From: Robiginitomaculum sp.
GTDB taxonomy: Bacteria; Pseudomonadota; Alphaproteobacteria; Caulobacterales; Maricaulaceae
Length of the DNA: 41,817 bases
Assembly: GCA_027080345.1 (NCBI GenBank)
Contig: JALWSB010000164.1
Span: forward strand, 1 to 41,817
Reading direction: 5' to 3'
Of the stretch, positions 3,998 through 28,676 are shown piece after piece (position 1 is the first letter of the stretch; every line of letters starts with the position of its first letter). Below the pieces are notes generated by a model. The model saw only the letters and a program-made list of their open reading frames with translations, was not told the origin of the DNA and ran no database searches. A program made the translations under genes and the position numbers.

Positions 3998-5560
3998 CTA
4001 TCCCCTGATCGCCATTTCCAGGCCATTGGCGTCCCGCTCAGGCTTTTTGGGCAGGGTTTCACTGGCCCCCAGTAAAATGCGCTGCGCCGACCAGGCACTG
4101 GCGCAGGCGTCAAGAAAATCATCGGGGCGCGCATCGCTGAACGGGGTAAAGCGTGTGGCTTGTAAAAACTCTTTGTCAAAGCCGGCTTTTTCCAGCGCCT
4201 GCAGACGCTCAGCACGCCCGGCATCGGTCTTTTTCGGATATTCACACGGCACATTATCGCGCAAAAGCGCAAAAGATAATTCCGGGTGCACCTCAAAAAT
4301 ACGGCTTTGCATATCGGGGGTGATGCGGGCGTCAATTTCGCGCATTTTATCGAAAATACCAAAGACCTGCTTGCTGATCTTGGGGGCATTTTCACCGCTC
4401 TGGGCATTGGCATTACAGGCATTTTCATAACTGGTGGTATAGAGCGCCCGGCGGCACGGGGCCGAAAACACACTTGATTTACGCGCCCCAAGACGCTCTC
4501 GCGCCGCCGCATCACAGGCCCGCCCGCCGGGCCTTGCCACTTCGGCAAAACCAATGGGCATATCCACCGCGACAATTTGCGGACGTTCGGGTACATTCAG
4601 AACGTCCCAAAACGAACGCAACATCATCAGGCGCGGCGCATGTTGGCCCGCCACATCAAGAAGCACCGCAATCCATCCGCCCGGACAGCCATCAAGCCCG
4701 GCCACCCAGCGCCCGGGTTTGCGCGATTGCAAAGGCGGGCGGGCGGTCACCCCGGTGCGCGGATTGGCCAGCCGGTCCTGCGTTGCCACCAGCGGCAACT
4801 CACTGACCCCCATGCGCGCCGCTTCGCCAATCACCGCATCAACCGAGGACACCGCGTTTTCCAGCGCCACATTGATCGGCAGACCATTAAGAAGATGGGC
4901 GCTGAACAGCGCCATAAGAAGATCGCCCGTGCCCTTGGGGACATCCTTGTAACACGGCACGCTGACGCACCAGGCATCGCTTTTGGTCACCGCCATTGTG
5001 GTGCAATTGGTGTCCGAACGGATCGACGAGACAAGCGTCAGATCACAGCCGACATGCCGCGCCGCGCTCGCCGCCGAGGCTTCGTCAAAAACCGGATGAT
5101 CGGCCAGCCAGGCCAACTCCCAGGCATTGGGGGTGATGATGTCGGCCCGGGGTAATAACGTGCGGGCAATCGCGTCGGCCACCGCCTCGCGCACATAAAG
5201 CCCCTCTGGTTCATCGCCCATTACCGGATCAACAATGATTTTGGCATCGGGCTTGGCTTTGCGGACATAATCGATCATAGCCGCCGCCGCAGTCACCTGA
5301 CGCGAGGTATGAAAATACCCCGTTACCACCGCGTCAATATGTTCCAAAACTCCTTGCGCCTGCACCGCGAGAAACAGGCGCGACAACCCGTCCGCATCAA
5401 TTTCCACAAGCCCCGGATCGCCCCACCCCGGATGGCGTCCGACAATCACCGTGGGCAGGGTAATGACCTCGATACCCAACCGTTCAAAGGCAAAAGCACT
5501 GGCCGATGCACCAATTCGGCTTGAAGCGGCTTGCGAAGAGATCAAAAGTACGGTTTTCAT
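3998..5560 (-). CDS. pdxY: Pyridoxal kinase fused to a C-terminal DUF429 domain
   Basis: Residues 1 to about 275 are a pyridoxal kinase of the ribokinase fold (ATP-dependent phosphorylation of pyridoxal in B6 salvage). The visible marks are VVTGYFHTS, the IIVDPVMGD block at 108-116, the ITPNAWEL motif, and the GTGD phosphoryl-transfer loop with Asp213. Residues from about 284 to 520 form a DUF429 domain, a predicted RNase H-like nuclease fold, with AGLDGCPGGWIAV, VAVDMPIGF, KSSVFSAP, FEVHPELSF and a terminal DDFLDACASAW. A normal PdxY is about 285 residues, so this is a two-domain fusion with no stop between the halves. It shares a 29-nt divergent gap with the CoA-lyase gene. The job of DUF429 is unknown. 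Confidence 0.88.
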   Translation of the reverse strand: MKTVLLISSQAASSRIGASASAFAFERLGIEVITLPTVIVGRHPGWGDPGLVEIDADGLSRLFLAVQAQGVLEHIDAVVTGYFHTSRQVTAAAAMIDYVRKAKPDAKIIVDPVMGDEPEGLYVREAVADAIARTLLPRADIITPNAWELAWLADHPVFDEASAASAARHVGCDLTLVSSIRSDTNCTTMAVTKSDAWCVSVPCYKDVPKGTGDLLMALFSAHLLNGLPINVALENAVSSVDAVIGEAARMGVSELPLVATQDRLANPRTGVTARPPLQSRKPGRWVAGLDGCPGGWIAVLLDVAGQHAPRLMMLRSFWDVLNVPERPQIVAVDMPIGFAEVARPGGRACDAAARERLGARKSSVFSAPCRRALYTTSYENACNANAQSGENAPKISKQVFGIFDKMREIDARITPDMQSRIFEVHPELSFALLRDNVPCEYPKKTDAGRAERLQALEKAGFDKEFLQATRFTPFSDARPDDFLDACASAWSAQRILLGASETLPKKPERDANGLEMAIRG

Positions 5561-18453: not shown

Positions 18454-20562
18454 ATGAAATCAGGATTTTGCGGCCTGCCGCCCGCCCCAATTGCCGCCCG
18501 TCATAATAAAAAAACCACCCATTGGGGACAAACCATAATTGACCCTTACGCCTGGCTGCGCGATGAAAACTGGCGCGATGTGTTGCATGACCCGGGCTCT
18601 CTGGACCCAAAAATCCGCCAGCATTTACTGGCCGAAAATGCCTATTGCGATGCCGCCATGAGCGACACAGCCGCTTTGCAAGAGGCGCTTTACAAGGATA
18701 TGCGCGCGCGGATCAGCGATGAGACGACCAGTGTTCCCGATGGCGATGGCGCTTACGCTTATTACACCCGCTATCTTGGCGGACAGGAGCACCCGCTTTA
18801 TGTGCGCTGTCCGCATGCGCAAGGCGCGCCAATGCAAGATGAAGAAGAGATTTTGCTCGATGGCAATGCGCTGGCCGCCGGACAGACCTTTTTTGATCTT
18901 GGTGATGTCATCCACAGCCCCGATCATGCAAGGATTGCCTATGCGATTGATGTCAAAGGCTCTGAATATTTTGATATCCGCATTCGCGATATTAAAAGCG
19001 GCCATGAGCACCCCGAAACCTTGCACGACAGTAATGGCGTCATCGTCTGGACCGGCGATTCGCGTGCCTTTTACTGGGTCTGGCAGGACCAAAACGGGCG
19101 ACCCCGCGAAGTGCGCCGCCATGTTATCGGCACAGATCAGCCCGATACGCTGATTTATAAAGAACAGGATCCGGGCTTTTTTCTCACCCTCGCCCGCAGC
19201 AGTGATCAACGGTATTTATTCATTATTGCCCACGATCACGATACCAGCGAAGTGCATTATCTCGACCTGCATACGCCAAAGCCGGAGGTGCGCACAATCG
19301 CCGCGCGGCAAAACGGCCATGAATACAGCGTCGATCATGCACACGGCCTGTTCTACATCCGCACGAATGGCGACAAGGCGGTGGATTTTAAAATCATGAT
19401 CGTTCCAACGCACCAACCGGAGCGGCAATATTGGCGTGATTTTATCCCGGCACAGGACGGGATCTTACGGCTTGAGCAGCGCCTGTTTGCGCATCACCAT
19501 GTGCGCCTTGAAAAAGAAAATGCGCGTATGCGCCTTGTTGTACATGCGTTAACCGACAATGCCGAGCACATAATAAATTTTGAAGAAGATGCTTATACCC
19601 TTGCTATTGAGCCTCTTTTTGACTTTGAAACCAACACAATGCGGGTGCGCTATTCATCGCCCGCCCAGCCGCAACAGATTATTGATTACACGATGGATAC
19701 GCGGCAAAAGCACGTGCGTAAAATCCAGAAAATTCCCTGCGGTCATAACCCCGATGATTACCGGGTACAGCGCATAGAGATCAAAGCCAAAGACGGCGCG
19801 ATGATTCCCGTCACGTTGCTCAGCCACCGCAAAACACCATTGGACGGCACGGCCCCGGCATTTCTTTATGGCTATGGGGCCTATGGTTATGACACGCCGG
19901 CGGCGTTTTCGAGCAATCGGCTGGCGCTTGTTGACCGGGGCTTTGTGTTTGCCATTGCCCATGTGCGCGGCGGCGACGCTTGTGGCTATAACTGGTACCA
20001 ACAGGGCAAAGGCGAACACAAGACAAATACCTTCACCGATTTTATTGTCGTTGCCCAATCTCTTGGCGATCAAAAGATGTGTGATCCGGGCCGGATTATT
20101 GCGTGCGGCGGGTCCGCCGGGGGGCTTCTTGTCGGGGCGGCCCTTAATATGGCTCCGGGGCTTTTTGCCGGGGCCATTGCCATTGTGCCTTTTGTTGATG
20201 TTCTGAACACCATGTGCGATGCCAGCCTGCCGCTGACCCCGCCCGAATGGCCCGAATGGGGCAATCCGATCAAGGACGAGGCGGCGTTTACGCGTATTCG
20301 CGCCTATTCGCCTTATGATAACGTGCAAAAGACCCCCTACCCGCCCCTCTTCGTGCGCGCCGGCCTGGCTGATGCACGCGTCACCTATTGGGAGCCGGCA
20401 AAGTGGGTGGCCCGCCTGCGTCATGAGGCAAAAGGCGGCGGGCCATTTTTACTGACGACCGAAATGGAGGCCGGGCATGGCGGCGCAAGCGGACGCTATC
20501 AGGCTTTACATGAGAGCGCGCTGGAATATGCTTTTGCCATCAAAGTTGCGGGGTTAAAATAA
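18454..20562 (+). CDS. ptrB: Oligopeptidase B (S9A prolyl-oligopeptidase family)
   Basis: This serine peptidase cleaves short peptides after Arg or Lys. The 702-residue chain starts with the family's NKKTTHWGQTIIDPYAWLRDEN, continues with a seven-bladed propeller region, and ends in an alpha/beta-hydrolase domain. YGYGAYG, HVRGGDACGYNWYQQGK, nucleophile Ser554 (CGGSAGGLLVG), Asp in LADARVTYWEP, and His in AGHGGASGRY mark the active site. No signal peptide, so cytoplasmic. Length fits oligopeptidase B (about 690). It is the last gene before a terminator shared with the convergent TPR gene. Confidence 0.93.
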   Translation: MKSGFCGLPPAPIAARHNKKTTHWGQTIIDPYAWLRDENWRDVLHDPGSLDPKIRQHLLAENAYCDAAMSDTAALQEALYKDMRARISDETTSVPDGDGAYAYYTRYLGGQEHPLYVRCPHAQGAPMQDEEEILLDGNALAAGQTFFDLGDVIHSPDHARIAYAIDVKGSEYFDIRIRDIKSGHEHPETLHDSNGVIVWTGDSRAFYWVWQDQNGRPREVRRHVIGTDQPDTLIYKEQDPGFFLTLARSSDQRYLFIIAHDHDTSEVHYLDLHTPKPEVRTIAARQNGHEYSVDHAHGLFYIRTNGDKAVDFKIMIVPTHQPERQYWRDFIPAQDGILRLEQRLFAHHHVRLEKENARMRLVVHALTDNAEHIINFEEDAYTLAIEPLFDFETNTMRVRYSSPAQPQQIIDYTMDTRQKHVRKIQKIPCGHNPDDYRVQRIEIKAKDGAMIPVTLLSHRKTPLDGTAPAFLYGYGAYGYDTPAAFSSNRLALVDRGFVFAIAHVRGGDACGYNWYQQGKGEHKTNTFTDFIVVAQSLGDQKMCDPGRIIACGGSAGGLLVGAALNMAPGLFAGAIAIVPFVDVLNTMCDASLPLTPPEWPEWGNPIKDEAAFTRIRAYSPYDNVQKTPYPPLFVRAGLADARVTYWEPAKWVARLRHEAKGGGPFLLTTEMEAGHGGASGRYQALHESALEYAFAIKVAGLK

Positions 20563-20592
20563 AAGCCCCCGGCATTTGCCGGAGGCTTTATA
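20562..20592. terminator. Bidirectional terminator between ptrB and the TPR gene
   Basis: AAGCCCCCGGC and GCCGGAGGCTT pair with one mismatch around a 4-nt loop. A-rich and T-rich tracts flank both sides, so it can end transcripts from both converging genes. Confidence 0.75.
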
Positions 20593-20611: not shown

Positions 20612-22096
20612 TTAGCTGGATTTCTTTTTGCGGCGCTCCGCTTTCTTTTTGGCGACACGCTCTTCTTCATTTTTCAAAATGGTTTGACATTCCGCAGAGA
20701 TTTCACCAACCCCTTCAAGAAATTCAGCGCCCATACGTTTTTTGCGATCCAACTGGTTTTTACATTCATCCAGTTTGACTTGCGCCTTAAATTCTTTTTG
20801 CTTGCGCGCCACTTCAAACTCGCCATTGATGAAGCGCACCCAGCCACTGGCGGCTTTTTTGGAATAAGGGTATTGCTCAGCCCTTTTAAACTCTTTCAAG
20901 GCCGCAATCGGTTTATGGCGTTCGTAAAGCGAATTGGCAATCAACACATAAGCATTGCCGGGCTTTTTAATGCCCTTGGCCAGGGCTTTGCGTAAAGCAT
21001 CTTCCGCCTTGGCATATTGCCCTTCAGCGTAATAAGACTCGCCCAATTGCTTGTATATCTTCCCATCAGCGGAGATCGCTGCCGCTTCGGTCAATACCGG
21101 AATCGCCCGGTCATATTCACGGGCTTGACGCCACATATTCGCCAAAGCCTGCAGATTTTTTCTGTTTTTTTCCACCCGGCCTGCATTCATTTCGCGTTCC
21201 AGAATGGAAGCGCCGCGATAAGGCACTTCGTAATAGCTGTAATAGCGCGCCAGAGCGAGAAGCTCATTGCTCTTGGTCAGCATGCCATTGAGATACATAA
21301 TCTTGTTAATCTCAAATGCCTCGCGGGACTTGTTGGCCTGTTGCTTCAAAGAGGCAATGGCTTTCCAAACCCTTTTATCATCGGGCCAGATGGAGACTTC
21401 TTTTTCCAGAAGCGCGGCCTGTTTGCCCGGCATTTTCAACTCGTGATAAAGAAAATTCAGCATGTTAAAATGCTTTTTCTTCACCGGATGGGCCATTCTG
21501 AAGGCCGCCTCCGCATGCCCTAAAGCCTTGCGATACTGATCAACCTGGGACCAGGCCGAAGCAATCATCAAATGAATGCGGTCATTGGCCTTGCCGCCAT
21601 TACGCAACCAGTCTTCAAGAATTCCAGCGCCTTTGGCGTATTGCTCCTGCGAAATATAAAGCTGGCCAATATTTGGCTTGAGCGCATTGACTTCCCCCGG
21701 ATTAAGCGCGCCTGTGTTAATGGCGTGTTCCCAATCCGAAATCGTGCCGCGCACATTGCCCTTGCCATAATTGGCTTGGCCATGAATCTGATAAATCACG
21801 GCCCGCTCGTAAGGTGTTAATTTGGGTTTGGCCAAAAGCTGATCAAGAATTGACAAGGCCAAAGTGTTATTGGGCGGCTCAGCCGCCAGCGCTTCTTGCG
21901 CCGCGACAATTTTCTCACCAACCGCCGTGGACAGCACCCGGCCTTTTGTCTGTTGCTTGTCCTTATCCCGACTTGCCCCGGCGCGTTGTGCCTGCGCCGT
22001 ATCCACCGAAAAAACGGTGGTAAAGGCAAAAGCCAGGAGAAACAGGGCCACTCCGCGGCCCAGATTCAGCCTGGCATTAGACAAAGATCTCAACAT
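20612..22096 (-). CDS. Exported TPR protein of the TonB2-type locus
   Basis: The 494-residue protein has a signal peptide (FLLAFAFTTVFSVDTAQAQ, cleavage near residue 36). About eight tetratricopeptide-like repeats follow, for example QAALLEKEVSIWPDDKRVWKAI and KQLGESYYAEGQYAKAEDALRKALAKG. It ends in a very basic tail (EERVAKKKAERRKKKSS). TPR proteins of this size close the TonB2 operons of Vibrio and relatives, where they are thought to assist the complex in the periplasm. It lies 74 nt downstream of the second tonB copy with its own ribosome site AGGAGAAG. Function is inferred from position. Confidence 0.85.
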   Translation of the reverse strand: MLRSLSNARLNLGRGVALFLLAFAFTTVFSVDTAQAQRAGASRDKDKQQTKGRVLSTAVGEKIVAAQEALAAEPPNNTLALSILDQLLAKPKLTPYERAVIYQIHGQANYGKGNVRGTISDWEHAINTGALNPGEVNALKPNIGQLYISQEQYAKGAGILEDWLRNGGKANDRIHLMIASAWSQVDQYRKALGHAEAAFRMAHPVKKKHFNMLNFLYHELKMPGKQAALLEKEVSIWPDDKRVWKAIASLKQQANKSREAFEINKIMYLNGMLTKSNELLALARYYSYYEVPYRGASILEREMNAGRVEKNRKNLQALANMWRQAREYDRAIPVLTEAAAISADGKIYKQLGESYYAEGQYAKAEDALRKALAKGIKKPGNAYVLIANSLYERHKPIAALKEFKRAEQYPYSKKAASGWVRFINGEFEVARKQKEFKAQVKLDECKNQLDRKKRMGAEFLEGVGEISAECQTILKNEEERVAKKKAERRKKKSS

Positions 22097-22170: not shown

Positions 22171-22770
22171 TTAATCCGCCAATTGGAACTTGAACGGTGT
22201 CACCACGCCGCGGCGGGCAACCGCCTTGCCGTCAACGATTTTTGGATTGTATTTCCATTTTTCAATAGCCCGTGTGGCGGCGCGTACAAACATTGAACTG
22301 CTGCACTTGACCCGGATATTATAAGGCTTGCCATCGGCACTCACATCGAACATGCCTTGGCATGTCCCCTCCAGCCCCCGCTCGGCGGCGCGCGGCGGAT
22401 AAATCGGCTCGATACGCACCAAAGGCTGTGCATCCCGGTCACTGACCTGGAAATTGACATTACCGCGATTAAGCTGCGGCGGTTCAAAATCGGGAATAGA
22501 CCCGGTAACCGAAGCGATGCCTTCTTGCGGCTGCACGGCTTTTTGTTTTTCAATCGCGGGCGGCGGGGGTGGGGGCTTGACGTCTTTGGAGCGCTCCGGT
22601 TTGACATCGCGCTGACGCACTTCCAATTCCTGAACTTTTGGATTGATGTCAAAGCGTACCGCGTCTTGCTTTTCCGCCAGGGTAATATCCCCGGAAATGA
22701 AAAAACGCATCAATAAAAACAGCCCTACAGTAATAATGGCCGCAATCGGCAATACGACAAAAAAGCGCAT
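22171..22770 (-). CDS. tonB: TonB-family energy transducer, copy A
   Basis: This 199-residue protein has one N-terminal membrane anchor (about 7-25), an acidic/basic linker, a short proline run (KPPPPPP) and a C-terminal TonB domain. The domain reads YPPRAAERGLEG, FDVSADGKPYNIRV, ATRAIEKWKYNPKIVDG, then VVTPFKFQL. TonB carries energy from the ExbB/ExbD motor to outer-membrane receptors. The short periplasmic span resembles TonB2 rather than E. coli TonB. The ATG at 22770 follows GAGGAGTTGCAA; a GTG at 22839 would add a Cys-rich extension before the membrane anchor and is rejected. It is about 83 % identical to copy B, with no gaps. Confidence 0.92.
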   Translation of the reverse strand: MRFFVVLPIAAIITVGLFLLMRFFISGDITLAEKQDAVRFDINPKVQELEVRQRDVKPERSKDVKPPPPPPAIEKQKAVQPQEGIASVTGSIPDFEPPQLNRGNVNFQVSDRDAQPLVRIEPIYPPRAAERGLEGTCQGMFDVSADGKPYNIRVKCSSSMFVRAATRAIEKWKYNPKIVDGKAVARRGVVTPFKFQLAD

Positions 22771-22984
22771 TTGCAACTCCTCTTGATCACACGCAAAACA
22801 CGGACAACAAAGACTAGGACAGGCACCAAATGGCGCCACTCCCCTGATTCCCCGTTTACCGGTTTTTTCTTACTTTACCGGGTTGATTGCCTATAGAACA
22901 GCCCTTTTTTGACCTGTAGCGGTAAAAACCCGAAAAGTTTGCACCTCCATAAGACATATCTCAACAATCTGGCGATTTTACGGC
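22171..22984 (-). repeat. Tandem duplication unit A (tonB plus leader)
   Basis: This unit and 23120-23946 are two copies of a tonB gene with its upstream leader, lying in direct orientation 949 nt apart. The noncoding leader here is 22771-22984 (214 nt). Similarity stops sharply after TTTTACGGC. The leader copies differ by about 13 substitutions, three 1-nt gaps and one 16-nt insertion in B. Confidence 0.88.
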
Positions 22985-23119: not shown

Positions 23120-23719
23120 CTATTCTGAGAGTTGAAATTTGAACGGTGTCACGACATTACGGCGGGCAACGGCTTTGCCATCAACGATTTTTGGATTGTA
23201 TTTCCATTTTTCAATGGCCCGGGTAGCCGCCCGCACAAACATCGAGCTGCTACACTTGACCCGGACATTATACGGCTTGCCTTCGGCACTCACATCAAAC
23301 ACCCCTTCGCATGCGCCTTCCAGCCCCCGTTCAGCGGCGCGCAGCGGGTAGACAGGCTCAATACGCACCAAAGGTTGCGCATCGCGGTCACTGACCACAA
23401 AGACACTATTGTGATGGGCCATTTGTGGCGGGCCAAAATCAGGAATAGAACCGGTGACCGAGGCAATACCTTCTTGTGGTTGAACGACTTTTTGTTTTTC
23501 AATTGTCGGCGGTGGAGGGGGAGGTTTGACCTCTTTTGTGCGCTCGGGTTTGGCCTCGCGCTGATGCACTTCAAGCTCCTGAATGCTGGGATTGATGTCC
23601 AGACGCACGATGTCCTGTTTTTCAGCCAGCTTGATATCCCCGGAAATAAAAAAACGCATCAACAAAAACAAACCCATGGTAATGATAGCCGCTATTGGCG
23701 ATACGGTGTAAAAGCGCAT
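23120..23719 (-). CDS. tonB: TonB-family energy transducer, copy B
   Basis: This second TonB of exactly the same length (199 residues) has the same plan: membrane anchor at about 7-25, linker, KPPPPPP, TonB C-terminal domain. Differences from copy A cluster in the region just before the TonB domain (PQMAHHNSVFVVSD against PQLNRGNVNFQVSD), which could alter receptor or motor choice. The last 75 residues are nearly identical. The start at 23719 follows GAGGAGTTGCAA. It lies downstream of the ExbB-ExbD fusion with leader B between them. Confidence 0.92.
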   Translation of the reverse strand: MRFYTVSPIAAIITMGLFLLMRFFISGDIKLAEKQDIVRLDINPSIQELEVHQREAKPERTKEVKPPPPPPTIEKQKVVQPQEGIASVTGSIPDFGPPQMAHHNSVFVVSDRDAQPLVRIEPVYPLRAAERGLEGACEGVFDVSAEGKPYNVRVKCSSSMFVRAATRAIEKWKYNPKIVDGKAVARRNVVTPFKFQLSE

Positions 23720-23804
23720 TTGCAACTCCTCTTGATCACACGCAAAACACGGACAACAAAGACCAGAACAGGCACCACATGGCGCCACTCCCCTGATTCC
23801 CCGT

Positions 23805-23965: not shown

Positions 23966-24913
23966 TTAGTCAGCCCTGTTGCGTTCAATAGTCCAGGCTC
24001 CGCCAGCGCGCTCTACCTGCTCGACAATATTGACCACAGTACCGTGGCTGGCCTGTTCATTGGGCGCAATCATAACGCCACTATGGGCGTGCTCGGCACG
24101 CAAGCTGGAGACAGCGGCACCCACCCGCGGCAACTCAGTAAGCCGTTGATTGACATACACCAAATCACGTTTTGTGACCTGGATGAGGATCAGCGGATCG
24201 GGATTGTTCTGCACCGTGTTTTCATCATGCGGTTGTGGCACCAAAGAGATTGTTTTTTCCTGTACGAAAACGGCCGTGGCGATAAAGAAAATGAGCATGA
24301 TAAAGACAATATCAAGCATGGGCGTCATATCGACGCTGGCCGTATCCGCGGCGCGTAATCGGCGCGGCCCCCCACTAAAAGTGGCCGGTTCAAGCCGGTT
24401 GGCGAACGTATTGATTCGCGCTTTCGCGGCGGCCTCCAAACGGCGGACAACAATCAGCCCGGAAATCGCCACAACCATACCGGCCATGGTCGTTACGGTG
24501 GCATTGGAAACCCCCGCCGACATGGACCGGATATCTGACGCACCGGTCGCGGCCATAACATCGAAAACAGTGATCATGCCGGTCACCGTCCCAAGCAAGC
24601 CAAGTAAAGGCGAAATAACAACAAGGGTTTGAATAAGCGCGAGATTTTGCTCTGATTTTTGCCGTATAACAGAAATCATTCTGCGACGGATTTTTTGGGC
24701 GCCCCAGGATGTACGCTCAGCGCGCGCCTCCCATTCGCGGGCAAGGCGTCCGGCATCGCGATCACTGGCAAAGAGAAAATAGGCAATACGTTCGAGAATA
24801 AAACTCCACATAATAAATGTGGTAATCATGATCAGCACCAAAACCGGCCCGCCGATTTCCAGAAACAGGCGCAGATTGGTGACAATATCAAGCGGACCGG
24901 ATAAAAATTTCAT
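23966..24913 (-). CDS. Single-chain ExbB-ExbD fusion protein
   Basis: The 315-residue protein joins two motor subunits normally made separately. Residues 1 to about 175 are ExbB (TolQ/MotA family): helix 1 at 22-42, a cytoplasmic stretch, helix 2 at about 98-120 (PLLGLLGTVTGMI) and helix 3 at about 136-157. Residues about 190-315 are ExbD (TolR family): membrane helix 198-217 with the proton-carrying Asp201 (DMTPMLDIVFIMLIFF) and a periplasmic domain. The junction falls where ExbB ends and ExbD begins in the cytoplasm, so the topology works. The halves resemble the separate ExbB (25934-26467) and ExbD (25518-25925). The start follows AAGGGGGAAGCG. It should use proton flow to drive TonB. Confidence 0.92.
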   Translation of the reverse strand: MKFLSGPLDIVTNLRLFLEIGGPVLVLIMITTFIMWSFILERIAYFLFASDRDAGRLAREWEARAERTSWGAQKIRRRMISVIRQKSEQNLALIQTLVVISPLLGLLGTVTGMITVFDVMAATGASDIRSMSAGVSNATVTTMAGMVVAISGLIVVRRLEAAAKARINTFANRLEPATFSGGPRRLRAADTASVDMTPMLDIVFIMLIFFIATAVFVQEKTISLVPQPHDENTVQNNPDPLILIQVTKRDLVYVNQRLTELPRVGAAVSSLRAEHAHSGVMIAPNEQASHGTVVNIVEQVERAGGAWTIERNRAD

Positions 24914-25034: not shown

Positions 25035-25070
25035 AAAAAAAAAGGCGCCCCCTGAAAGAGGCGCCTTTAT
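25035..25070 (-). terminator. Rho-independent terminator after the second exbD
   Basis: On the minus strand AAAGGCGCC and GGCGCCTTT form a perfect 9-bp stem with a short loop, followed by a run of T. It stands about 28 nt after the stop of the exbD gene at 25098 and separates the five-gene operon from the fusion gene. Confidence 0.88.
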
Positions 25071-25097: not shown

Positions 25098-25493
25098 TCA
25101 GTTTTCGACGGAGACTTTAACCGGAATACCCACCGAAATGAAAATGTCCTGCACGTCAAGGACCGTACCGATTTTGGCCAATTGGTCGCCCTGTATAACG
25201 CCCTCAGCCTTCGGATTTTCTGACTTCATGGTTTCCAGAGCCGCCTTAACACCGGCCTTGGGGACAATTTTCTTGTTAATCCAAATCTGGTCATCACTGG
25301 CAACGGCCACCATGATACTTGGTTTTTCCGCCGGCAGTTCAGGTGTCCAAAGAGGTTTGTTCACATCAACACCCGGCTCTTTTACAAACACGGCCGTCAC
25401 AATAAAAAAGATAAGAAGAATGAACACCACATCAAGCATGGGCGTCATATCGAGTTCAATATCTTCGGCATCCGGTAATGTACGTCTTGCCAT
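25098..25493 (-). CDS. exbD: ExbD-family biopolymer transport protein, second copy
   Basis: The 131-residue protein has a short cytoplasmic N-terminus, one membrane helix with the conserved Asp (DMTPMLDVVFILLIFFIVTA), and a periplasmic domain. The periplasmic part (PGVDVNKPLWTPELPAEKPSIMV, then QGDQLAKIGTVLDVQDI) is clearly different from the first ExbD, so the two are not recent duplicates. Having two ExbD genes side by side is known for some TonB2-like loci. The ATG at 25493 follows GTGGAGAGTATA; a GTG at 25505 is less likely. It ends before a strong terminator. Confidence 0.92.
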   Translation of the reverse strand: MARRTLPDAEDIELDMTPMLDVVFILLIFFIVTAVFVKEPGVDVNKPLWTPELPAEKPSIMVAVASDDQIWINKKIVPKAGVKAALETMKSENPKAEGVIQGDQLAKIGTVLDVQDIFISVGIPVKVSVEN

Positions 25494-25517
25494 TATACTC
25501 TCCACTTTGTGCGCTTT

Positions 25518-25925
25518 TTAAGCGCCCTTGCCCCGTTGAATCATGGTTGGTGCGCCCGTACCCTTGGCCGCTTCAAAAACCTTGATCACAGCACCATGAC
25601 TGGCTTCATCATCCGGAACGATCAAAATGGCACTGTCACCATTATCAGCGCGAAAACGCTCAATCGCCGGACCAACACGCCGAATATCAGTCAACTGATC
25701 ATTCACAAAAATCGTATCACGATCATTGACCTGGATCAGAATCACCGGATTTGATTTTTCCGGCTCACTGTCCGATGGCGGTGGCGGCACCAGGGAAATG
25801 GTCCGCTCTTGCACAAACACGGCCGTAACAATGAAGAAGATCAGCAGAATAAAAACAATATCCAGCATCGGAGTCATATCGACTTCGACTTCTTCCATCT
25901 TGTGGCCTTTTCCACCTCTACGCAT
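25518..25925 (-). CDS. exbD: ExbD-family biopolymer transport protein, first copy
   Basis: The 135-residue protein has a basic N-terminus, membrane helix with Asp (DMTPMLDIVFILLIFFIVTA), then a proline-rich stretch (LVPPPPSDSEPEK) and a TolR-like periplasmic domain (PVILIQVNDRDTIFVNDQL). It is the closest relative in the window of the ExbD half of the fusion protein; both carry TISLVP and the DDEASHGAVIKVFE/NEQASHGTVVNIVE block. It starts 8 nt after the ExbB stop with AGGATAG upstream, so it is co-expressed with ExbB. Confidence 0.94.
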   Translation of the reverse strand: MRRGGKGHKMEEVEVDMTPMLDIVFILLIFFIVTAVFVQERTISLVPPPPSDSEPEKSNPVILIQVNDRDTIFVNDQLTDIRRVGPAIERFRADNGDSAILIVPDDEASHGAVIKVFEAAKGTGAPTMIQRGKGA

Positions 25926-25933
25926 AATCTATC

Positions 25934-26467
25934 CTAACCCAGTTCCATGGCATCAGCGACGCGTTGCGTTTCACGCAAGCCGCGCCGTTGCAGCCGGTTG
26001 GAGAAGATCAGCCCCGAAAGGGCCGCAACCATGCCCGCCATGGTCGGGATGGTGGCCTTGGAGACCCCCGCCGACATGGCCCGCACATTAGACGATCCGG
26101 TTGCTGCCATCACGTCGAACACCTCGATCATCCCGGTCACTGTGCCCAGCAACCCCAAAAGCGGCGCAATGGCAACGAGTGTCTTGATCAAAGAGATATT
26201 CTGTTCGGTCTTCTGACGCACTTGCGAGATCAGCTGATCGCGGATGGCGTGGGCATACCAGGAAGAATGATCTTCCCGGCTTGCCCATTGCTTGATCGCG
26301 CGATTGGCCAGACGCTTGTGCGCATATTGATAGTAAGCGAAGCGCTCCAGGATAAAGGCCCACATGAAAAATGTGGCAACCATGATCAGCAACAAGACAT
26401 TGCCGCCCATCTCCAGAAACTGCTGGAGATTATCCAAAGCAACTGCCGGGTTTAACCAATTGGGCAT
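25934..26467 (-). CDS. exbB: ExbB-family proton-channel subunit
   Basis: The 177-residue protein has three predicted membrane helices at about 22-44, 98-120 and 136-157, with the family core APLLGLLGTVTGMIEVFDVMA and MSAGVSKATIPTMAGMVAALSG. ExbB pentamers surround an ExbD dimer and pass protons to energise TonB. It is smaller than E. coli ExbB, as is usual for ExbB2 proteins. The ribosome site AAGGAGGGCCGTT is the best in the locus. It aligns without gaps with residues 1-151 of the fusion protein, about 59 % identical by hand count. Confidence 0.94.
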   Translation of the reverse strand: MPNWLNPAVALDNLQQFLEMGGNVLLLIMVATFFMWAFILERFAYYQYAHKRLANRAIKQWASREDHSSWYAHAIRDQLISQVRQKTEQNISLIKTLVAIAPLLGLLGTVTGMIEVFDVMAATGSSNVRAMSAGVSKATIPTMAGMVAALSGLIFSNRLQRRGLRETQRVADAMELG

Positions 26468-26494
26468 AACGGCCCTCCTTTACTGGACCAAACC

Positions 26495-27877
26495 CTATTT
26501 CGACCGCGCTTCTGCGTTGGCAGCGACAAGACCCGCCGCCTGCTCTTCCAGCACCTGCTGAATGCTACGGCTCGCCGATGTGGTGAAGCTGTGCAACAGA
26601 AGAAGAGGAATAGCCGACAGAAGACCCAGAACGGTGGTCACCAGCGCAAAAGAGATACCATCAGCCATCAGCTGTGGATCGCCCGCACCAAACAAGGTGA
26701 TCGCCTGGAAGGTCTTGATCATACCAATAACCGTACCCAGAAGGCCCATGAGCGGGGATACCGCTGCCAGCACCTTGATCAGGCTGAGGCCGAAATCGAG
26801 TTTGCCGCTTTCTTTCAAGATCGCGTCATCGAGTTTAAGCTCAATGGTCTCAATGTCCTTGTCCTTGGCGCTTTCATACGCGGCCATGACACGGCCCAGC
26901 GGATTACCCTTGCCAGGTTTCTTGCGGCGCATTTGTGCCCGCACAGCCATTGAGGTCATATAAAGGGCGAACAGACGCCAGACACCGATAAAGGCACCAA
27001 TGGCAGCCATAACCGTCACCGCATAACCGATATTACCACCGGCTTTATAGCGTTCCATCAAGGTTGGCGTCCGCACCACAAGGCTAAGCAAGGAGCCACG
27101 GGTCGGGTCAACCGGCCCTTTGACGATAGTCCCCGGCTTGGCTGACGTCACATTCTTGGCCAGTTTACGCAGGCTGCCACCAGGCTGACGGCCCAAAACA
27201 CCCAGTTCGCCATCTTCAACTTTGAGGAAACTGGAACTTTTGGTCAACCAGGAAGTAAAGGAACCAACACGGGTGATTTTAACCGGCTTGCCGTCATTAT
27301 GCTCGGCAATCGAACCCGTATACGTCACCACATCGCCTTGCGCCTTGGCTTCTTGCAATATGGTTTGATAAATATTTTCCAGCTCGGAAACTTCAGGCAG
27401 CTTGGAGCTGTTGGCCACGGCGTCCAGCCCTTCGCTGCGACCAGGGAACTGACCGGAGATGAAAGAGCTGTCCAGAACAGATTTAAGCTCACCGGCGGCC
27501 TGACGCGCCGCGCCAAACAGCTCACCAAACGAGCCTTGCGCCTTGCGCAGATCCGCATCAAGCTGCAGGATCAATTCTTTATTGGCATCCAGCTTGGCGT
27601 TGTTGGCGCTCTCGGCGGCCCGCAAGGCCCGCAGGCGCGCTTTGGCCTGGTTCAGCAGCTTTTGCTGCTGGGCTTTTTTCTGTATGAACTCCTGCACCCG
27701 GCGCTTGGCTTCCGCATTGGCCTCACGGCTGTCGCGACCTACGCGGGCGATCAGTTCATCAATGGTTTTCGCCGGCGCGGTTTGCGCGAACGCAGCCCCG
27801 GCATTCATGGTCAGCACCGTTGCCGCAACAGCCGCAGCGCCAAGAAGCGTTTTTACATTATACGTCATCGTTTTCAT
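26495..27877 (-). CDS. ttpC: TtpC-type long ExbB/MotA-family protein
   Basis: The 460-residue protein starts with a signal peptide (VLTMNAGAAFAQ, cleavage near residue 32). A periplasmic coiled-coil-rich region follows at about 40-125 (EANAEAKRRVQEFIQKKAQQQ), then a beta-rich middle. The C-terminus is an ExbB/MotA channel domain from about 275, with AVSPLMGLLGTVIGMIKTFQAITLFG and ALVTTVLGLLSAIPLLLLHSF. This layout matches TtpC, an essential extra component of TonB2 systems in Vibrio. The start is uncertain: ATG codons at 27886, 27877 and 27868 are all in frame, and I chose the middle one. It follows the DUF3450 gene by 13 nt. Confidence 0.9.
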   Translation of the reverse strand: MKTMTYNVKTLLGAAAVAATVLTMNAGAAFAQTAPAKTIDELIARVGRDSREANAEAKRRVQEFIQKKAQQQKLLNQAKARLRALRAAESANNAKLDANKELILQLDADLRKAQGSFGELFGAARQAAGELKSVLDSSFISGQFPGRSEGLDAVANSSKLPEVSELENIYQTILQEAKAQGDVVTYTGSIAEHNDGKPVKITRVGSFTSWLTKSSSFLKVEDGELGVLGRQPGGSLRKLAKNVTSAKPGTIVKGPVDPTRGSLLSLVVRTPTLMERYKAGGNIGYAVTVMAAIGAFIGVWRLFALYMTSMAVRAQMRRKKPGKGNPLGRVMAAYESAKDKDIETIELKLDDAILKESGKLDFGLSLIKVLAAVSPLMGLLGTVIGMIKTFQAITLFGAGDPQLMADGISFALVTTVLGLLSAIPLLLLHSFTTSASRSIQQVLEEQAAGLVAANAEARSK

Positions 27878-27890
27878 CCGCCTCATTTTC

Positions 27891-28661
27891 CTATTGAACC
27901 ACAGTCGCGCCAGGCACAGGGGCCGGGAAGACTTCTGGTGTTTTTTGTTCCAGAGCGATACGAGTCGCCGATTGCACATCGAGTTTATAGCTGTCAGGCA
28001 GGTCTTCATAAGCGCCCTTGGCCTTGTTCCAGATGTGCATTTTGTGATTACTGTCCGTATAGATCAGCGCCACCCGGCCAAGCCGCAGGAATTCCACCTT
28101 TTGCGGCTCACCATTAATAAGCGTGTTCTCGGAATAAGAGGTTGTCTGGTTACCGTAAGACAGCTCAATCTGATAGGCGTTGATAATCTGGCGATAGAGC
28201 TCGGCAGGCGACTGGTTGGGATCGCCGGCAAGCTCTTTCAGCTTGGCGATCCGGTTTGTGCGCTCTTCCATCTGGAACGGCACATCCGCGTTAACAAAAG
28301 TTTCCAGTGCGCCAATCATGCGCAACATCATCGGCAGAAGCTGGGATTGAATCTCGTCAACCCGGCCAATCTGGCTTTTCAGGGATTCAATTTCATTTTG
28401 CTGGGATTGCAAAAAGATCTTCTGCTGCTCAACGTTAAGGGCAACCGTGTCCTTTTCTTGCAAGGCTGCGCGATATTCGCGCACGACTTCACCGACCTGA
28501 TCATCAATCTTGTCAATTCTGGCCTGAGCCGCAGCCCCAGCCATTGTTGAACGCTGCGCGGTCTTGACCGCTGAAGAAAGCTGGGCTTGCGCCGCACCAC
28601 CAAAAGCTGCCACCGCGAGGGTAGCGGCACTGATACGCGCCAATAACTTCAACCTCGTCAT
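27891..28661 (-). CDS. DUF3450 periplasmic protein
   Basis: The 256-residue protein has a signal peptide ending AFGGAAQAQ, then a long coiled coil at about 45-115 (residue pattern typical of DUF3450). A conserved region with DVPFQMEERTNRIAKLKELAGDP, INAYQIELSYGNQT and VEFLRLGRVALIY follows. DUF3450 proteins are the usual first gene of TonB2/TtpC operons; their exact role is unknown. The ATG at 28661 is preferred because GGAG precedes it by 7 nt; an ATG at 28676 would add five residues. First gene of the operon DUF3450-ttpC-exbB-exbD-exbD. Confidence 0.92.
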   Translation of the reverse strand: MTRLKLLARISAATLAVAAFGGAAQAQLSSAVKTAQRSTMAGAAAQARIDKIDDQVGEVVREYRAALQEKDTVALNVEQQKIFLQSQQNEIESLKSQIGRVDEIQSQLLPMMLRMIGALETFVNADVPFQMEERTNRIAKLKELAGDPNQSPAELYRQIINAYQIELSYGNQTTSYSENTLINGEPQKVEFLRLGRVALIYTDSNHKMHIWNKAKGAYEDLPDSYKLDVQSATRIALEQKTPEVFPAPVPGATVVQ

Positions 28662-28676
28662 ACTTATGCTCCGCAT

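Follow-up and report, generated by a model that had tools for sequence, protein, structure and literature searches.

Can ExbB and ExbD, normally the separate ring and axle proteins of the proton motor behind nutrient uptake, be encoded as one polypeptide, and how would such a chain be accommodated in a motor whose published examples mostly contain five ExbB-type and two ExbD-type subunits (PMC10666116, PMC12905483)? The question is raised by a minus-strand frame in the window, the stretch of 41,817 nucleotides of Robiginitomaculum DNA that was analyzed here. The frame runs for 315 codons from ATG to TAA with zero internal stops, and its ATG is directly preceded by a Shine-Dalgarno-like AAGGGGGA. 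Both Pfam matches fall within the single protein, MotA_ExbB (PF01618) at residues 66–170 (78.8 bits, cut-off 22.9) and ExbD (PF02472) at residues 190–305 (79.8 bits, cut-off 25.4). The ExbB domain hence runs uninterrupted into the ExbD domain, as a preliminary description of this DNA had claimed. The gene and its parts are as follows.

23966..24913, minus strand: fused ExbB-ExbD gene, 315 amino acids (open reading frame; MotA_ExbB and ExbD domains; same fusion in three relatives)
24395..24913, minus strand: ExbB part, residues 1–173, with three long helices and the pore threonines T109 and T142 (domain match, model, alignment)
24329..24394, minus strand: linker, residues 174–195 (low model confidence, conserved length)
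23966..24328, minus strand: ExbD part, residues 196–315 and stop codon, with the transmembrane (TM) helix carrying D201 and the periplasmic domain

Two AlphaFold2 monomer models of the fusion were made, the one from a 4-row alignment (mean pLDDT 65.7) being replaced by one from 34 rows (74.9). In the latter, the ExbB half is predicted to form helices at residues 7–62, 70–123 (broken at 89–90) and 128–174, with the membrane orientation taken from the family. In both models the TM segment of the ExbD half is one helix, from 197 to 221–224. The stretch at ∼178–196 is of low confidence and corresponds to the linker; the alpha/beta periplasmic domain of ExbD is predicted better. Foldseek with the 34-row model returned TolQ, ExbB, and periplasmic ExbD chains, led by TolQ chains, at modest E-values (best 4.2e-04).

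Such a frame would also result if a stop codon had been lost through an error in sequencing or assembly, and the assembly of the window is fragmented (202 contigs, 81.66% complete). The junction was checked for the missed stop or frameshift that the preliminary description had considered, and none was found. A stop-free frame over both domains is present in 4/18 genomes of the genus, namely that of the window (G000), G012, G013, and G015, and the latter three fusions are 60%–63% identical to that of the window at the amino acid level. In all four genomes the gene is placed between exbD2 and an additional tonB; in G013, whose contig is JAJFFP010000061.1 (Robiginitomaculum sp. OFTM175), the fused frame is present letter for letter. 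Unlike the fusion, the in-frame exbB/exbD1 pairs of the relatives have a stop between the genes. Because three other genomes carry the same fusion at the same position of the operon, a missed stop or a frameshift can in practice be dismissed; the fused ExbB halves, which form a clade of their own, likewise count against an artefact, whose probability we put close to nil.

The fused gene lies within a larger cluster, the remaining features of which are listed below.

27891..28676, minus strand: TtpB-like gene (DUF3450; domain match)
26495..28009, minus strand: TtpC-like gene with a long N-terminal region and a C-terminal MotA_ExbB domain (domain match); the coordinates are those of the longest open reading frame, and the true start is probably near 27877
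25934..26467, minus strand: separate exbB, related to the fused ExbB half (domain match, tree)
25518..25925, minus strand: separate exbD1, nearer than exbD2 to the fused ExbD half (domain match, tree)
25098..25505, minus strand: separate exbD2 (PF02472)
25041..25068, minus strand: terminator-like hairpin of 12 pairs in the spacer from exbD2 to the fusion (hairpin scan)
23120..23788, minus strand: tonB copy a (TonB_C; domain match), with a likely ATG start at 23719
22171..22839, minus strand: tonB copy b (TonB_C; domain match), with a likely ATG start at 22770
20612..22096, minus strand: TtpD-like TPR gene (domain match)
20562..20589, minus strand: terminator-like hairpin past the TPR gene, at the end of the cluster (hairpin scan)

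The order, all on the minus strand, is DUF3450, TtpC-like, exbB, exbD1, exbD2, fusion, two tonB, and TPR, with the TonB_C genes directly downstream of the fusion. This is the gene order of TonB2/Ttp systems (DUF3450, TtpC, ExbB, ExbD, TonB, TPR). In the Vibrio TonB2 operon, exbB2 is followed by exbD2. The operon of Vibrio vulnificus is described as having six genes, with all six proteins essential for TonB2-dependent siderophore uptake; TtpB2, a DUF3450 protein, comes first, directly before ttpC, and TtpD2, which bears TPR motifs, comes last, after tonB (PMC6957404). The present cluster is likened to the Vibrio system by its domains and gene order and differs from it by two exbD genes, a second tonB, and the extra ExbB-ExbD single chain. 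A TonB2-type cluster with a separate ExbB, two ExbDs, and a second TonB accompanies the fusion in all four genomes, which bears out the presence of free exbB and exbD genes (exbB, exbD1, and exbD2) at the same locus. Together with the fusion, the cluster of the window encodes three ExbB-type and three ExbD-type subunits, the region 25098–28009 holding two exbD genes, exbB, and the TtpC-like gene.

The terminator scan found 15 sites overall where 11.8 were expected, a count so near expectation that only long stems mean much; the hairpin at 25041..25068 is among the two longest. A terminator-like hairpin of 13 pairs occupies the same spacer between exbD2 and the fusion in G013. The scan returned none in this spacer of G012 or G015, although inspection of the G012 spacer by eye shows an extended inverted repeat that has a larger loop and runs into T's. 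For all four genomes, a promoter scan limited to the sigma-70 consensus gave no site in the spacer that precedes the fused gene. By eye, the motif (A/G)GTCGCAG is shared by the regions that precede the fused gene in G012, G013, and G015 (L025, L026, and L027) and is possibly regulatory.

A wide distribution, which would have made the architecture less unusual, was looked for and not found in the samples searched, where the fusion is limited to the four genus genomes. Matches were required to bridge both halves in the order ExbB then ExbD, with at most 16 candidates scored per genome (5 or 10 in the larger samples); the genome samples partly overlap. Profile A1 was built from the four fusions, and profile A4 additionally contained E. 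coli ExbB-ExbD and TolQ-TolR read through the stop. With A1, the fusion was found in 4/137 genomes of the family (E ≤ 1e-30, among the matches listed), in 3/398 sampled genomes of the order (E ≤ 1e-70; all three are genus members, and G015 was not drawn), and in 1/398 sampled genomes of the phylum (E ≤ 1e-38), which was the window's own; the strict thresholds for order (1e-70) and phylum (1e-38) could miss distant fusions. With A4, the only one of 349 genomes of the phylum with a fusion at E ≤ 1e-32 among the matches listed was again that of the window, and among the matches listed none was found in 188 genomes from the phylum of G824 (labelled Myxococcota) or in a further draw of 200 proteobacterial-looking genomes. 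The samples from the order, the phylum, and the second phylum thus yielded no fusion other than those of the genus, and among the listed matches spanning both halves all but the fusions hold at least one stop. A named genome collection yielded one fused frame, L045 on the same contig as G013, among 80 loci kept of at least 581 relatives. In ten loci chosen by eye for unusually long frames around the ExbB/TolQ match, ExbB and ExbD lie in separate frames, and the same holds for G562 and G797, which were flagged and likewise chosen by eye.

No description of a natural ExbB-ExbD, TolQ-TolR, or MotA-MotB fusion was found in the open-access literature with the phrases searched. TolB-Pal and PorE fusions are described in PMC12204202, a figure legend of which also refers, without giving names, to fusion genes at tol-pal loci, possibly including a TolQR fusion. 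The parts are therefore known, and the ExbB-ExbD single chain is undescribed as far as seen in open-access literature.

The phylogeny bears on how the single chain arose. The fused ExbB halves form one clade, with an ultrafast bootstrap of 100, an SH-aLRT of 100, and recovery in 99% of 200 bootstrap trees, and so share a single origin. The clade sits on a long stem, the ExbB half of G000 being flagged as a long branch, and the best tree places it among the free ExbBs of the genus, beside that of G015, a placement with little support (25/71). The fused ExbD halves group with ExbD1 and not with ExbD2; their unity is weakly supported (67). When a tree was built from five further proteins of the operon, the fusion-bearing genomes were scattered within one clade of 11 genomes. 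The fusion label needs 4 changes on this locus tree, no fewer than the mean of 3.8 for shuffled labels, a patchiness which indicates that the fusion is dispensable or mobile. Most likely it originated once and was afterwards lost several times or transferred. A search for remnants of the fusion in the spacer after exbD2 of genomes without it gave only two chance-level matches of 8 and 9 residues (E 0.6–0.7), of which the one in G015 is a fragment of a TonB.

The genes exbB and exbD1 share one frame in 11/17 genus genomes that have both, and the gap from the exbB stop to the start of the exbD1 frame is 3–12 bases in these in-frame pairs. By our comparison, the linker of the fusion is nearly as long as the exbB-exbD1 stretch read through the stop. 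Loss of the stop between an in-frame exbB and exbD1 is thus a likely origin: a tandem copy of exbB-exbD1 would have lost its intergenic stop codon in an ancestor within the genus, giving a single chain.

Programmed readthrough of the stop was also considered, on account of 11 read-through matches, 10 with one TAG and 1 with two TGA. It was ruled out, since the stops in sister genera vary (TAG, TAA, or TGA), since 6 of the 17 exbB/exbD1 pairs of the genus, including that of the window, are out of frame, and since E. coli exbB-exbD are likewise in frame. These observations indicate ordinary gene spacing, a likely route to fusion.

Pairwise comparison of the four fusions gave pN of 0.19–0.29 and pS of 0.65–0.75, with dS near or past saturation, indicating purifying selection on the protein. 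The pN/pS ratio is 0.25–0.40 for the fusion and 0.07–0.20 for both free ExbB and ExbD1. Core positions are retained, as had been proposed from the single sequence. The fusion shares with E. coli ExbB-ExbD (5:2; 6TYI, 9DDO) its domains and the counterparts of ExbB T148, T181, W38, and the TM2 proline P141, kept in 4/4 fusions, with T109 and T142 equivalent to T148 and T181. The counterparts of ExbD P22 and D25 are also kept in all four, the latter being Asp201 of the ExbD TM helix. The fusion differs from the E. coli proteins in being one chain instead of two (one open frame in four genomes) and in that a large part of the cytoplasmic stretch separating TM1 from TM2 in E. coli ExbB is absent. 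The retained core residues, a join on what is the cytoplasmic side in this family, and a TonB2-type cluster in which the gene has exbD on one side and tonB on the other support the earlier proposal of a modified Ton motor.

Other positions have changed. Nine positions of the ExbB half, T141 and R157 among them, are fixed in the fusions in states absent from 17 free ExbBs. T141 adjoins the TM3 threonine, and the free copies have a proline there. In E. coli, Asn196 of ExbB, with Arg200, hydrogen-bonds to Met15/Glu14 of ExbD (PMC12215075). The Asn196 position, R157 of the fusion, is Arg in 4/4 fusions and Asn (16) or Ser (1) in the 17 free copies, and the Arg200 position is Ala in two of the four fusions versus Arg in 17/17 free copies. 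The fusion is therefore altered exactly where ExbB holds the N terminus of ExbD, a site at which a covalent link would matter. At the position of E. coli E176, all 17 free copies have Lys and the fusions Asn (3) or Arg (1); this change and the missing TM3 proline indicate that coupling is perhaps altered or lost. The position of E. coli P190 is Ser in both free ExbB and the fusions, and Pro in 17/17 TtpC-like proteins.

The linker comprises ∼20 residues, rich in small and charged ones, and its length is constant within one residue across the four species while its sequence drifts. The C-terminal helix of ExbB and the N terminus of ExbD are both cytoplasmic in this family, so that joining them requires no change of topology. 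Residues 158–174 would prolong the third helix, and the ∼20 flexible residues would then return to the pore entrance, which by our estimate from its length the linker can reach. In-frame ATG, GTG, or TTG codons are absent from the linker in G000 and G015, precluding a separate ExbD by internal start there; the linker contains two ATGs in G012 and one GTG in G013.

How such a chain would work depends on its partners. As the preliminary description rightly noted, a 1:1 chain has either to combine with the free subunits or to adopt another ratio. Five ExbDs do not fit the pore of a 5:2 motor, an all-fused pentamer bringing three extra ExbD helices, and this makes mixed rings probable; they are also suggested by the co-occurrence of free ExbB and ExbD in all four genomes. 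On balance, and with modest confidence, we favor the reading that the fusion is an accessory energizer subunit of the TonB2-type Ton motor, derived from a tandem copy of exbB-exbD1 and co-assembling with free ExbB. Its ExbB half would occupy a place in the ExbB pentamer and its own ExbD helix would enter the pore, looping back through the cytoplasmic linker of ∼20 residues. One or two fused chains might be present per pentamer with free ExbB and, if only one, with free ExbD; the chain would thereby pre-pair axle and ring and couple them to the second or a shared TonB, and selection would have kept it in this role. The faster evolution of the fused copy relative to free ExbB counts against the accessory-subunit explanation, as do its patchy presence, the changes at the E176 and TM3 proline positions, the weak support for one origin of the ExbD half, the in-frame start codons in the linkers of G012 and G013, the lack of a sigma-70-like site ahead of the fused gene, and the grouping of the window's extra TonB apart from those of the relatives. 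Should this working be true, it would also show how mixing with free subunits allows a 5:2 machine to retain a fixed 1:1 chain.

That the fusion alone forms homo-oligomers at a ratio other than 5:2 is rather unlikely. Such an assembly might have five chains with two ExbD helices in the pore and three displaced, or a different ring size. The chain is 1:1 by construction, the hairpin between the fusion and the upstream genes in G000 and G013 would permit separate expression, and E. coli ExbBD is reported to occur in vitro at ratios of 5:1 and 6:3 as well (PMC12905483). However, three unpaired ExbD helices per ring would presumably be costly, free ExbB and ExbD are at hand in 4/4 fusion genomes, and 5:2 is given as the ratio common to Ton, Tol, and Mot motors (PMC10666116). 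Cleavage of the linker after insertion, which would release ordinary ExbB and ExbD for an ordinary motor at a fixed supply ratio, is less likely still. In favor of cleavage, the models assign the linker low confidence and it contains many small and charged residues, but no conserved cleavage motif was seen in it, its length and not its sequence is conserved, and a stop-separated gene pair would achieve the same without a protease. Much the same low probability attaches to a regulatory or inhibitory, non-pumping subunit that may poison or tune the main motor, or to a copy nearing loss. The faster protein evolution and patchy presence would fit such a role, as would the changed pore-side residue and the missing TM3 proline; against it, D201 and both pore threonines are invariant in 4/4 fusions, with zero stops or frameshifts over a dS of at least 1.5 and pN well below pS.

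For the accessory subunit, the number of tethers would determine the motion available to the motor. Relative rotation of ExbB and ExbD is described as the favored yet undemonstrated model for Ton and Tol (PMC10666116, PMC12905483), and a natural, selected single chain that restricts the turning of ExbD within ExbB makes the rotary model testable. With one tether and a free ExbD, swivelling would be possible and continuous rotation would remain. Two tethers would wind round each other and allow ExbD to turn only through a limited angle, so that continuous rotation would be impossible for a motor containing two such chains. That a motor whose two axle helices are each covalently joined to one of the five ring subunits nevertheless works, by a limited-angle or rocking motion, is a minority possibility in our estimate; if true, it would be a case of natural energy coupling without continuous ExbD rotation, contrary to the favored rotary model. 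The fused chain also offers a ready means of counting subunits, as it carries exactly one ExbD per chain.

The tonB genes beside the fusion have a history of their own. In a midpoint-rooted tree, with long branches flagged by the program, the extra TonBs of G012, G013, and G015, together with that of G009, form a group apart from the main TonB (90/89). Unlike these divergent relatives, the extra TonB of the window falls with its own main TonB (96/85) and seems to have been copied recently; duplication or gene conversion may have replaced copy a. A dedicated pair of fusion and TonB is plausible in the three species G012, G013, and G015. In G009 (L037, 6115–7440) an extra TonB of the fusion group directly follows exbD2, with neither a fusion gene nor a remnant of one in the spacer, which indicates that fusion and TonB can be uncoupled. 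Another second TonB, in a separate well-supported group, is encoded downstream of the TPR gene in G003 (L039, 2709–3389) and G008 (L040, 1961–2614). E. coli TonB and TolA have His20 and His22, respectively (PMC12215075). No histidine counterpart was found in the TM segment of the genus proteins, the segment aligned to the TM stretch of the window TonB being without histidine in all 25 TonB proteins of the 18 genomes.

The fusion was also compared with the related motors. Among PDB sequences, TolQ and ExbB chains match it best and almost equally well (1.8e-07 and 1.9e-07). The fusion scores far below the equivalog cut-offs for tolQ and tolR (43.8 versus 221 bits and 37.9 versus 127.3 bits); its neighbors are of TonB/Ttp type instead, placing it outside Tol-Pal. 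MotA-MotB stators belong to the same wider family of 5:2 ion-driven motors (PMC12905483); the fusion has TonB genes beside it and no MotA equivalog among its NCBIfam matches. A further ExbB/ExbD-family pair, perhaps TolQR, is present on contig C4. Elsewhere in the window, at 4001–5560, one open reading frame joins a Phos_pyr_kin/PfkB kinase-like domain (residues 60–255) to DUF429 (288–509).
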